NCBI GenBank assembly: GCA_001599595.1
Contig: BCHH01000015.1
Span: 37,659 to 54,358, forward strand
Length of the DNA: 16,700 nt
Direction of reading: 5' to 3'
From: Beverwykella pulmonaria
Taxonomy: Eukaryota; Ascomycota; Dothideomycetes; Pleosporales; Melanommataceae
Part shown: piece by piece, positions 1 to 16,700 of the stretch
Layout of the letters: each line of letters begins with the position of its first letter
Position numbering within the stretch: position 1 is the first letter of the stretch
Program-made: the position numbers and the translations under genes
The notes under the pieces: model-generated
Databases searched by the model: none
The model's input: only the letters and a program-made list of their open reading frames with translations
What the model was told of the DNA's origin: nothing

Positions 1-1007
1 CAAGCTAGGACATAGAAACTACTTACAAGCTGCACGACAACTACTAGTTAGCAACTTGCCTCATCATCCTGTCAAGCCAAGGCATGGACACCACTCACAG
101 CCTGTACCACGGCTATTAGTTAGCGACTTGCCTCATCAGTCTGTCAAGCCAGGGAATGGAAACTACTTACAGTCTGTACCGCGACCAGCGGTTAGCGATT
201 TGCCTCATCAGTCCGTCACGCTAGGGCATAGAGACGACTTACAATCTATCCCGCGACTAGCAGTTAGCGACTTGCCTCATCAATCTGTTAAGCCAGAGCA
301 TGGAAACCACTTACAATCTGCACCACAGCCGGCAGTTAGCGACTTTCCTTATTATTCTGTTAAGGCAGGGCATGGAAACCACTTACGCCCTGCACCGCAA
401 CCAGTAGTTAGCAATTTGCTTTATTAGTCCTTTAAATTAGGGCATGGAAACCACTTACGAGCTGCACAGTAACTAGCAGTTAGCAACTTGCCTTATAAGT
501 CCGACAAGCTACAGAATAGAGCCCACTTACAAGCTGCACCACGGTGAGCTGTTAGTAACTTGCCTTATTACTCTGTTAAGTTAGGCCATAGAAACTACTT
601 ACAAGCTGCACCAAGGCCAGTAGTTAGCGGTTTGCCTTATGATTCTGTCAAACCAAGGCATGGAAACTGCTTACAGTCTACATCACGACCATCAGTTAGC
701 GGCTTGTCTTATTATCTTGGCAAGCAAGGGCATAGAAACCACTTACAACCTGCACCGCGGAGAGCAGTTAGCAACTTGCCTTATCAGTCAACCAAGCCAG
801 GACAAGGATCCACTTACAATCTGCACCACGGCAAGCAGTTAGCAACTTGCCTTAGTAGTCCGTCAAGTCTAAACATGTGATCCACTTACAGTCTGCACCA
901 CGACCAGCAGTTAGCAACTTGCGTTATTAGTCTGTCAAACAAGGATATGGGCTCCACTTACAGTCTGCACCAGGACCAGCAATTAGCGACTTATCTACTT
1001 ATTCTAT
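1..1007 (-). repeat. 72-bp tandem array, 14 units, each with a full set of splice signals on the minus strand
   Basis: Fourteen head-to-tail units start at 1, 73, 145, 217, 289, 361, 433, 505, 577, 649, 721, 793, 864 and 936. All are 72 bp except the unit at 793, which is 71 bp. The array runs off the left edge. Units differ by many substitutions, yet on the minus strand three elements stay nearly fixed. The branch-point motif CTAAC is present in 13 of 14 units (CTAAT in the unit at 936). About 18 nt later comes a 3' splice site, CAG in 12 units and TAG in 2. Three nt after that comes a 5' splice site, GTAAGT in 12 units, GTGAGT in one and GTAAGC in one. Minus-strand frames all contain stops if unspliced. 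A divergent fifteenth unit joins the array to the secreted-protein exon at 1094-1198. The array is directly visible; its role as alternative terminal exons or microexons is inference. Confidence 0.97.
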
Positions 1008-1198
1008 CAATCAAGTAGAATAGATTTACTAACCTGTGCAAGAAACAGTTAATATATTTACAATATATAGAGAAAAAGATGTTTCTATCTTACCTGTCGA
1101 GCCTCAAGCTCTGTGGCCTTGGTTTCCTCCAGTTCAAGAGAACCAGGGAGCGCAAGAGCAGATGCTATAAGCATGGTAGAAAGAATTAAGAACTTCAT
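1007..1198 (-). CDS. Small secreted protein/peptide precursor; exon 1 plus nearest possible exon 2
   Basis: Exon 1 (1198 down to 1094) encodes 35 residues: a clear signal peptide (MKFLILSTMLIASALA, cleavage probably after ALA) and a short acidic pro-region ending LEARQ. The exon ends in phase 0 at CAG, followed by the donor GTAAGA. A 60-nt intron (1093-1034) has TTAAC and ends CACAG. The nearest exon 2 (1033-1007) then reads VSKSILLD and stops, giving a 43-residue precursor. An Arg-Gln end to the pro-region resembles Kex2-type processing before a mature N-terminal Gln, so the secreted product may be a very short peptide. This start is preferred over an in-frame ATG at 1336 because the signal peptide begins here, the context is AAAC-ATG, and a TATA box lies 113 bp upstream. 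Splicing could instead reach any unit of the neighbouring array. No family is recognised; an effector or peptide signal is possible but unproven. Confidence 0.75.
1034..1093 (-). other. First intron of the secreted-protein gene, a divergent unit of the array
   Basis: This 60-nt intron runs from GTAAGA to CACAG with a TTAAC branch-like motif about 16 nt before the acceptor. Its 3' end and the bases after it align with the 72-bp array units, with the branch, AG and GT(T/A)AGT elements in the same order. The array therefore looks like repeated duplication of this gene's own intron-exon boundary. Here acceptor and next donor touch directly (CACAG followed by GTTAGT), whereas array units have three bases between them. 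Confidence 0.7.
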
Positions 1199-13702: not shown

Positions 13703-14250
13703 AGGTTTAATGGCACGAATAAAGTATTAGGGATGGTTACGAAATCGTTCGGGGATCTTGAAGTCAAAATTGTAGATATCCATTCATGCGTCTCTACTTT
13801 ATACCCACACTGGCCGTCGAACTAGGTCGCGCCGCCCGCATCCTAGCTAAGCTAAGACAGATTGATGATCTTAACAAGTTGATTGCTTTCATGTTGAACA
13901 TGGACTATAAGACTATGATGCATTTGTTGTTTAATGCTGTAATAAAGAATGTGGAGGTATTCTCCAAATTGCAAACGGGACCACGTGTTAGTCTAAGTAC
14001 GACGGGAATATCCGTAAGGCGGGATTCGTCTACGAACCCTACTCATCGAGAGGCTGAGCATAGTGGGGTTTCCTTGAACTCCGAGGCCTTGAGGAGGCAC
14101 GTGGGAGGTAGTGATTGCTATTCCTATGCACTGCCACAAGATTCAATTGCACTGCCACGCCCACCAGCAACCACGTGGCAACCCCTCTTTTCATTATCTT
14201 CAAATTTACCCCAGTTGTTCAAATTTTCTCTCCACGCCGGCTCTTTTACC
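13703..14250 (+). promoter_or_regulatory. Upstream region of the HET-ANK gene with three CACGTG sites
   Basis: CACGTG E-box sites occur at 13982-13987, 14098-14103 and 14172-14177, the last 73 bp before the chosen start. An 11-bp direct repeat TGCACTGCCAC lies at 14127-14137 and 14148-14158. A pyrimidine-rich stretch leads up to ATG at 14251. CACGTG is the classic bHLH binding site, so regulation by such a factor is possible. From 13786 onward the region is also open in frame with the HET gene for 155 codons; if that extension is translated, these motifs would be coding and incidental. Confidence 0.4.
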
Positions 14251-16700
14251 ATGCCCCTGTACGAATCTCCTGAGGATTCGCTAGGTCCTGATAATATTCG
14301 CTTACTTCGCCTACTCCCTCAAAAAGACGAAAATGCACCTATTCAATGCCAACTTATCAACTGCTCTTTGCGGGAATCAGGCCAACGAACACATCCATAT
14401 GATGCTTTGTCCTACGTATGGGGTAATCCAGAGAAGACTTTGCCTATTTATATAGGCAAGCATCGCGTCAATGTGACACTAAACCTTCACGCGGCACTTT
14501 CACATATTCGACATTACTCTATTGAACGGATCATATGGGTAGATGCGGTTTGCATTAACCAAAAAAATGAACAAGAGAAAGAGCAACAGATTCAGTTAAT
14601 GGCGAAGATCTACGGTCAAGCAAACTGTGTAGTTGTTTGGCTTGGAGAGGCAGAGAACGATAGCGACCGAGCACTTGAATACATACGCGTTGCGGGAGCC
14701 AAGAAGTCTACGGATTCTTCGAATAACAAATCAAACGCGCAAGCAGTTCTGAAGCTGCTTGAACGACCGTGGTTTGAACGCATCTGGGTAAAAACTGGAT
14801 CCCCTTAATATCTACAGAAGTTACTAAAACGTTGGTCTAGATTCTTCAGGAAGTTGCCGCAGCTCGACATATCCTGATCAAATGTGGGCATGTGGAGATT
14901 GACGGATACGCATTCTGCTTGGGAGTGGATTCATTAAAGAATTCCTACAAAGCTCATGCAGACTTGCAGAGTTTGATCCGTTCAGTCACCTACCTGATAA
15001 GGGGAGCAATATTCCGGCCTAGCTATGCAAATAGTAGGCCGGGCAGGATTTCTCTAGATATATGTCCACTTGGCGAGCTAATGGACATGTACCATACCCA
15101 TAAGGCCACCAAGCTCCATGATAAGGTATTTGCCTTGCTCGGTATGAGTTCTGATGAACTTAGCAAAGATAGCCTGCTTCTTCAGTATAGTGATTCATGG
15201 AAAGACGTATTGCAACGACTTATCGGGTTCCTTCTTAGTGAAAAGGTATTGGTGGAGACTTGGCATGATAAGCAGATAGCAGTGATCAAGAGCAAGGGCT
15301 GTATTCTTGGTAAGGTGACCTCGATACAAAGTGACATTGCTCGGAATGACAGACAGGGCGTGGATGTCATTCTCACGGAAATGCCGAGGCAACTAGAAAA
15401 TATTCGATTCTGGAGAACTCACTGGACTCTACATACCTCAGCAAAATCCATCCGAGATGGAGATCTCATCTGCCTTCTTCAAGGAACTTCAAAGCCTACA
15501 ATCATTAGGTTATATAGGGATTATTTTTCTATTATCATGATTACAGCTACTCCTTTAGAGAGCCAAATAGGGAATGAAGATATCGAGTGGTCGAGATATT
15601 TACAATCAGAAAAAAACTTCACCCGCGACTTTCTACTTGTCTGGGACTGGAAAAATTCCCCAGAGGAGTTACAAGATTTAGATGAACACGAAACTTTCAT
15701 CCGAGTAAATAAATTTGGGTCAGAATATTCAAAGACAGGGTTGGATACCCATTTCGACAAAGCGATCAGAATATGGAATGTTGCACTGATATTAGAGGAC
15801 TCGAAAGTGGATAAAAATGTAGTAGAGAGGCGTCAAGAAGCAATAGAGAAGATGGCGTTTCAAGAAGACAAGCCTTACACGTTGAAAAGCCAATACGGTC
15901 AGACACCACTATCGTGGGCCGCAGGGAACGGGTACGATGCAGTAGTAAATCTATTACTTGCGAAAGATGGCGTCGATCCAGACTTGAAGGAAAGCCAATA
16001 CCATCGGACGCCACTGTCAAGGGCGGCGGGGGGAGGGCACGAGGTCGCGGTGAAGCTGCTGCTCAAGACAGGAAAGGTCGACGTCAACTCCAAGGACAAA
16101 GACGGGGCTACGCCGCTGTGGTGGGCAGCAAAGGGAGGGCACGAGGTCGTGGTGAAACTGCTGCTCAAGACAGGGAAGGTCGACGTCGACTCTAAGGACA
16201 AGGAAGGGACTACGCCGCTGTGGTGGGTAGCAAGGGGAGGGCATGAGGTCGTGATGAAACTGCTGCTCAAGACAGGGAAGGTCAACATCGACTCCAAAGA
16301 CAAGGGCGGGATTACGCCGCTGTGGTGGGCAGCAAGGGGAGGGCACGAGGTTGTGGTGAAGCTGTTGCTCAATACAGGCAAGGTCGACGTCGACTCCAAG
16401 GATAAAGACGGGTCTACGCCGCTGTGGTGGGCAGCAAAGGGAGGGCATGAGGCTATAGTCAAGCTGCTGCTCCAAAAGCAGGCGGATGTCACGGCAAAAC
16501 ATAATAGACGGACATCACTTCAAGCAGCGGCGGGAGGAGGCCATCTTGCCGTGGTCGAGCAGCTACTTCAAGAGAAGGCCGATGTCAACGCAGAAGCAGG
16601 ACCTTATAATGGACGAACAGCACTTCAAGCAGCGGCGGAAGGAGGCCATCTTGCCGTGGTCGAGCGGCTACTTCAAGAGAAGGCAGACGTCAACGCAGCA
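14251..16700 (+). CDS. HET domain-ankyrin repeat protein (allorecognition/NLR-like), 3' end beyond the window
   Basis: Exon 1 (14251-14787) and exon 2 (from 14841) are split by a 53-nt intron (GTAAAA...TCTAG) whose removal joins FERIW to ILQEVAAARHI, the expected HET motif. Residues about 48-190 are the HET domain, with YDALSYVWGN, IIWVDAVCINQ, ANCVVVWLG and RPWFERIWILQE. KVFALLGM appears in the middle region. From residue about 531 ankyrin repeats begin (TPLSWAAGNGYDAVVNLLL). They include four 34-residue periods with an almost identical TPLWWAA(K/R)GGHEVVVKLL core, then two repeats of a different type (LQAAAGGGHLAVVEQLLQEK). The frame is open to the right edge at 799 residues. HET domains trigger cell death in vegetative incompatibility; the ankyrin array would be the sensor. 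The start was chosen by family pattern; a start at 13786 would add 155 residues. Confidence 0.95.
16008..16430 (+). repeat. 102-bp near-identical ankyrin-coding tandem repeats
   Basis: The ACGCCGCTGTGGTGGG block recurs at exactly 102-bp spacing (16110, 16212, 16314, 16416), giving four copies of a 34-residue ankyrin unit; a more divergent unit precedes them. Differences between units are mostly single substitutions. The final two units in the window (from about 16510) belong to a separate subfamily with 105-bp spacing. Confidence 0.93.

Follow-up and report, generated by a model that had tools for sequence, protein, structure and literature searches.

The window analysed here, a stretch of 16,700 nucleotides (G000:C15:37659-54358 in a 45.6-Mb, 31-contig genome), very probably includes the 5' part of a secreted-peptide gene, one of a family whose array exons supply a single codon apiece, a reading made from the sequence. 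The predicted pre-mRNA would begin with a leader exon for a signal peptide and a short pro-region, run through tens of units that each combine an intron with a 3-nt exon, and close with a final intron whose acceptor directly precedes the stop codon. Each splice would add one codon in phase 0, and the mature peptide would be spelled at one residue per 72 bp.

The gene lies on the minus strand, where exon 1 (1094..1198) encodes the secretion leader MKFLILSTMLIASALALPGSLELEETKATELEARQ, which aligns with five further paralogous leaders. This exon ends at CGACAG|GTAAGA in phase 0, as had been proposed in a sequence-only reading of the same DNA, which described a signal-peptide exon closing at CAG|GTAAGA. 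By sequence reading, intron 1 (GTAAGA ... GCACAG) covers 1034..1093, and an acceptor with a donor-like site directly after it, CAG|GTTAGT, lies at 1028..1036. The earlier reading placed a fifteenth, divergent unit here; its acceptor at 1034 is present, and with GTTAGT following at once the mini-exon would have a length of zero. The site could be a zero-length exon (a re-splice site) or the interior of one longer first intron. Two paralogous arrays, C3a and C3b, carry CAG|GTTAGT and CAG|GTAAGC, respectively, at the matching position.

TRF reports a 72-bp period for positions 1-992 (13.8 copies, 75% matches), and the minus strand of 1-1094 contains 14 YAG-NNN-GTRAGY sites spaced at 72 nt (71 once), while 2000 first-order Markov sequences averaged 0.09 such sites and never exceeded 3. 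The 72-bp array with ordered splice signals that had been described is thus real and far above chance. The mini-exon is exactly 3 nt long in all 14 full units. In reading order on the minus strand, the exons are ACT (Thr) at 962..964, set in CAG|ACT|GTAAGT with a branch-like CTAAT at 986; ACT (Thr) at 890..892; ATT (Ile) at 818..820; GTT (Val) at 747..749, in the 71-nt unit; ACT (Thr) at 675..677, with a TAG acceptor and GTAAGC donor; CTT (Leu) at 603..605; CTT (Leu) at 531..533; CTC (Leu) at 459..461; GGC (Gly) at 387..389; ATT (Ile) at 315..317; ATT (Ile) at 243..245, with a TAG acceptor; ACT (Thr) at 171..173; GCT (Ala) at 99..101, with a GTGAGT donor; and CTT (Leu) at 27..29, the last within the window. 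All are YAG-NNN-GTRAGY sites, so that a YAG acceptor and a usable donor are found in 14 of 14 full units as claimed, at the coordinates given there and with the same variants (TAG in two units, GTAAGC once, GTGAGT once). The branch motif, which the sequence-only reading counted in 13 of 14 units by a motif of its own, appears here as a CTRAY branch-like site upstream of 14 of 14. An Rfam search of the window returned nothing at the gathering threshold, and an ARAGORN search of it found no tRNA.

The array, here C15a, runs past the left window edge to about C15:33359, and its terminal exon begins with TAA at about C15:33292. A run of N directly left of window base 1 interrupts it and has the same 80 bases on both flanks, so one unit may have been counted twice and the unit total of C15a is uncertain.

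Genome DNA searches indicated seven apparently intact arrays (C15a, C3a, C3b, C15b, C1, C5 and C2) and three degenerate-looking pieces, at C18, C11 and C8. Leader exons were read by eye at all seven loci. In an alignment of six leaders, which comprises every member but C15b, M1, L6, M9, L10, A16, P18, L31 and R34 are invariant, and the leader exon ends in Arg-Gln in five of the six. Dynamic-programming models gave 59 readable units for C15a, 88 for C3a, 80 for C3b, 55 for C15b, 83 for C1, 22 for C5 and 38 for C2. Each unit consists of an intron of ~69 nt (roughly 60-80) and one 3-nt exon, equal to one codon. When exon lengths from 0 to 12 were tried on the first eight genomic regions examined, only a length of 3 gave strict chains, and the exon stays at 3 nt in the 111 of 416 units whose length differs from 72 (61-82 nt). 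C3a (C3:174716, minus) and C3b (C3:184100, plus) lie head to head, with start codons about 9.4 kb apart.

Of the 425 codons read from the seven arrays, 400 lie at sites that fit YAG-NNN-GTRAGY strictly and the other 25 at relaxed ones. All but one of the relaxed sites have an AAG acceptor or one of the donors GTACGT, GTATGT, GTAGGT, GTTAGT, GTCAGT, GCAAGT and GTAAGA. A single unit of the 425, at C2:2668259, is without a normal acceptor; it may be left out in splicing or form a 9-nt exon instead. C2 is the weakest model, accounting for 10 of the 25 relaxed sites (GCAAGT, GTAGGT, GTCAGT and others). A read-through ORF over the array was ruled out by 38-200 stops per sense frame across the seven arrays.

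At the 3' end, the terminal acceptor was picked as the YAG following the aligned TAAC branch-like site. By this definition the acceptor is followed immediately by a stop codon in six of the seven members, TAA in C15a, C3a, C1, C5 and C2 and TGA in C3b, while in C15b it is followed by CCA TAG, which places one extra codon before the stop. A conserved element of ~70 nt lies 3' of the stop and aligns in all seven arrays (for example C2:2670565-2670660), with the core GGTTTCAGCTCAGGCCGG and one change from it in C5. When the genome was searched with the C2 copy, the six places listed all lay beside the family, and the C5 copy was absent. Folding gives 20 predicted pairs, two of which are changed on both sides, and the element may form a stem in this model; a role as a 3' UTR regulatory or processing element is possible.

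The codons of C5 spell the compact six-cysteine peptide DCIGDQCYGRCPLDQYGNCCGC, and those of C2 spell a second compact six-cysteine peptide, RDQCNNQVGEDCTRTAQCCRGYCRGRNGPRGSGICVVR, in which the Q between NN and VGED comes from a doubtful unit. Knottins, or inhibitor cystine knots, have the order C-x-C-x-CC-x-C-x-C. The C2 peptide matches this cysteine order (C-C-CC-C-C), with a loose spacing that 2783 of 200000 shuffles also fit. The C1 peptide is rich in Gly and also contains Arg, Glu and His, and that of C15b contains much Gly, Thr, Val, Leu and Cys. The peptides of C3a, C3b and C15a are rich in Thr, Leu, Pro and Ala and have an FCA-x(7)-C end in common. A Pfam search with the six spliced precursors other than C15a returned no match, nor did a sequence search of the PDB with the C2 and C5 peptides.

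For the last three peptides, with C15a represented by the part beyond the N run, local alignment was compared with codon shuffles. None of 5000 shuffles reached the observed score in any of the three pairs, the scores being 124 against a shuffle maximum of 67 for C15a-C3b, 91 against 78 for C3a-C3b and 75 against 68 for C15a-C3a. Amino-acid identity in and out of register is 0.61 vs 0.11 for C15a-C3b, 0.36 vs 0.12 for C3a-C3b and 0.45 vs 0.11 for C15a-C3a, where the intron bodies give 0.736 vs 0.681, 0.728 vs 0.714 and 0.713 vs 0.682, respectively; these values are biased towards identity because the register came from the peptide alignment, and the fair measure is the shuffle test. In C15a-C3b the intron bodies are also more alike at units encoding the same residue (0.757) than elsewhere (0.701), so part of the codon homology in this pair may simply reflect common descent. 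C3a-C3b and C15a-C3a have no such excess.

These peptides bear on how many products each locus makes. The leader could be joined to varying subsets of units to give many peptides per locus, an idea compatible with the single-codon-exon gene, and every unit is in phase 0 with usable sites, so that skipping would keep the frame. We regard such combinatorial splicing as rather unlikely, as the cysteine frameworks of C2 and C5 and the ordered homology between paralogs favour a defined full-length product, and the unit codons read are without any stop. The sequence-only reading had gone further along this line. Its alternative terminal exons find no counterpart, with neither a terminal exon nor a stop among the unit codons read, and its set of many secreted peptides from one locus gives way to a family spread over several loci, with one peptide as the best reading of each.

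The splice signals can also be read as relics. In that case the array would be a non-coding minisatellite within one long intron, generated when an intron and 3 nt of its flank were tandemly duplicated; the leader would be joined straight to the terminal exon, and the splice motifs would be inherited decoys. The recurrence of the same motifs in nearly every unit and the tandem array reported by TRF would suit this origin. The state of the splice sites does not. We located units by intron body alone, without splice motifs, and omitted junctions more than 100 nt apart or holding N. Among the 394 adjacent junctions left in the seven arrays, 377 read [ACT]AG-NNN-GTRAGY, 16 are relaxed and one is neither. 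Over the 416 units of the models, the donor has G at +1 in 416, T at +2 in 415 and G at +5 in 416, and the acceptor has A in 416 and G in 415, with C, T or A but never G at -3; the lowest mean identities among the tabulated columns are those of exon positions 1 and 2 (0.33 and 0.38). Because the models were chained on splice sites, these column figures are partly circular, a circularity that the body-only junction test answers.

Related units point the same way. Across 1835 unit pairs with a body identity of at least 80%, differences affect 1.3% of donor positions, 0% of AG, 4.4% of branch and 16.9% of body positions, and exon bases 1, 2 and 3 differ in 53, 48 and 35% of pairs; the pairs are non-independent, and the figures are descriptive rather than P values. 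At thresholds of 80, 85 and 88%, the body has a transition/transversion ratio of 2.8-3.1 and the exon one of 0.7-0.8; the exon value at 92%, where data are few, is 1.6. A comparison of intact with degenerate junctions was too small for use (two in C18, two in C8, none in C11).

Codon choice is also constrained. There are no stops among the 425 unit codons, against 4.0 expected from column composition (P=0.018, a modest test alone). For Lys, Glu and Gln, the units use NAA 27 times and NAG in 1 of 28 codons, whereas NAG makes up 139 of 255 in three ORFs of the window (Fisher 6e-8), a yardstick of stop-to-stop frames that are perhaps partly non-coding. An NAG before GTAAGT would create a rival acceptor, and avoidance of NAG is thus the pattern that a spliced chain would require. 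None of the unit codons encodes Met or Trp, the residues whose codons must end in G. A minisatellite with decoy motifs appears very unlikely against AG and donors that are nearly fixed where bodies differ by ~17%, length changes that spare the 3-nt exon, the paralog codon homology, the cysteine-framework peptides, the NAG avoidance and the lack of stops. Chained microexons, by contrast, which the sequence-only reading had listed as one option, are strongly supported by one in-frame codon per unit and a terminal stop in six of seven paralogs, and further by the stop-free codons, the splice-position conservation and the paralog peptide homology.

We scanned the whole genome for chains in which three donors follow one another with 3-nt exons and obtained 340 matches, against none for a reversed-pattern control. 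We also tried a plain tandem repeat as the source of the pattern and rejected it: the same search in viral_contigs yielded 32 stretches unlike the family arrays; their chains mostly comprise 2 or 3 sites, within a range of 2-9, the NNN is mostly near-constant within a chain, and the acceptor is often AAG or GAG. The scan bears on a different origin, in which mobile introns of the introner or stwintron type inserted side by side and left 3-nt exons as by-products. Similar introns do occur here many times over, a re-splice-like AG|GT site stands at the array start, and introner-like elements are known in fungi from the accessible text of two papers (PMC4457414, PMC8469720). We consider this origin highly improbable, since DNA searches with four arrays placed every copy among the best-scored candidates in a head-to-tail array or a remnant of one, 339 of the 340 strict three-unit chains fall at loci examined (a pattern blind to isolated copies), and the codons carry homology. 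That the genes are once-functional and now in decay, a process suggested by the degenerate-looking pieces at C18, C11 and C8, is scarcely credible when a strict or relaxed site is kept at 393 of 394 junctions in seven members and their terminal stop is TAA in five cases and TGA in a further one.

The scan also brought out a second single-codon-exon gene at C3:1858788-1860225 (-), which contains 15 of the 340 matches. It has a different leader, MNAKILLVGFFAAIAAAAPTPDNGIKERA, followed by 20 single-codon exons, GGKQCYDFPLPGGGSSRVCT, with unit lengths of 63-83, and it ends in an ordinary terminal exon with the possible reading CSESLSVTNTSIGD-stop. A DNA search with this gene matches only itself, and the body profile of the first family misses it. 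Judging from these sequences, the one-codon-per-exon plan apparently had separate origins, unless descendants of a single one have diverged beyond recognition. A third array of ~68 nt, at G000:C6:1021040-1021590 (+), has TAG|NNN|GTAAGT units, several of them irregular, and no leader was found there.

Since fungal introns are short and each is recognised as a unit, removal of the array introns could proceed one by one. The anatomy, phase, stop placement, conservation and paralog homology described above are seen in the sequence; transcription, this splicing order by intron definition, secretion and processing are inferred. The peptide would be secreted, cut after Arg, probably by a Kex2-like protease, and folded through disulfides. 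Tandem duplication that copies the intron signals is a likely way for units to have multiplied. Unequal exchange among units would add or remove whole residues in frame, so that peptide length and sequence could change without a frameshift, which fits the range of 22-88 units. We lean, with only slight preference, towards a broader proposal: that this is a residue-by-residue modular gene in which recombination edits a secreted peptide in frame, that the plan arose at least twice (perhaps a third time at C6), and that it is a general means of fungal diversification missed by annotation.

Aphid bicycle genes also contain many microexons. To our knowledge, their exons are not one codon each and have no tandem unit, and the organism is unrelated to the fungal host here. 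In the available text they are described as a fast-evolving putative effector family recognised through gene structure (PMC9168663). A schistosome micro-exon gene (MEG) has 10-20 exons of 6-81 bp (3-81 according to the abstract) between introns of 0.1-5 kb, and MEGs share with the present genes secreted products, very short exons mostly in multiples of three and difficulty in automatic annotation, as far as the accessible part of that paper goes (PMC10526429). In the seven genes here, the coding part behind a secretion leader is likewise dominated by successive, very short exons whose length is a multiple of 3. The sizes differ from those in the accessible MEG text, with 3-nt exons, 20-88 per gene over both families, and tandem introns of ~69 nt; the phylum is different, and no homology is claimed. 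The arrays may alternatively be labelled an extreme variant, or limiting case, of micro-exon genes.

Tiny exons have been reported in fungi as well, including a 1-nt exon in Fusarium CYP621A with read support in two Fusarium species (PMC12940212), very short exons in Phlebia radiata genes (PMC6540522) and a microexon in Trichoderma Xlr2 (PMC11121469). In the accessible text of these reports they range from a few codons to less than one codon, with no consecutive single-codon chain and no repeat of intron plus codon. Human RPS24 has three neighbouring alternative microexons, and a '3-bp exon' appears in the available portions of both papers (PMC12686416, PMC11162997); that is three microexons in a ribosomal protein gene, against tens of one-codon exons in tandem. 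Stwintrons and introner-like elements are multiplied, similar fungal introns with consecutive splicing reactions, and in the text available they are nested or spread over many genes, whereas the present introns stand head to tail, each with a codon, in peptide gene families (PMC8469720, PMC4457414). Near-identical introns scattered in unrelated genes did not appear among our best DNA-search candidates. In a stwintron, a splice element of the external intron is interrupted by an internal one; the only thing here that resembles this is the zero-length AG|GT site at the head of three arrays, C15a, C3a and C3b. Intron gain by tandem duplication has added one or a few introns in the cases described in the accessible text (PMC4974935), against tens of units here, each adding a residue. 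Our search of the literature on tiny, single-codon or chained exons, which had most subscription papers and bioRxiv preprints outside its coverage, found no gene of tens of consecutive single-codon exons. The tandem unit of intron plus codon is a new plan as far as the literature searched shows.

If the single-codon-exon reading is true, up to 88 consecutive 3-nt exons would be joined in order, which would test both intron definition and minimum exon size. Acceptor and donor factors would have to act 3 nt apart, tens of times, without loss. Such a gene class would likely be missed by standard annotation, hiding secreted Cys-rich peptides in fungal genomes. Minisatellite dynamics would be tied to peptide evolution, each unit gained or lost being a frame-safe change of one residue.

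Two other features of the window lie outside the gene. An element at 2607-2771 shares 84% identity, over 178 columns of alignment, with an insertion in the degenerate array at C11; from the element's tRNA-like text, our guess is that it is a short interspersed element. The interval 13762-16700 (+) holds a HET-domain ORF, of a kind that suits a filamentous ascomycete, and then an ankyrin-repeat ORF whose tandem repeats of 102-105 bp show 87-92% matches, an ORF pair that we take to be as in fungal non-self recognition genes.
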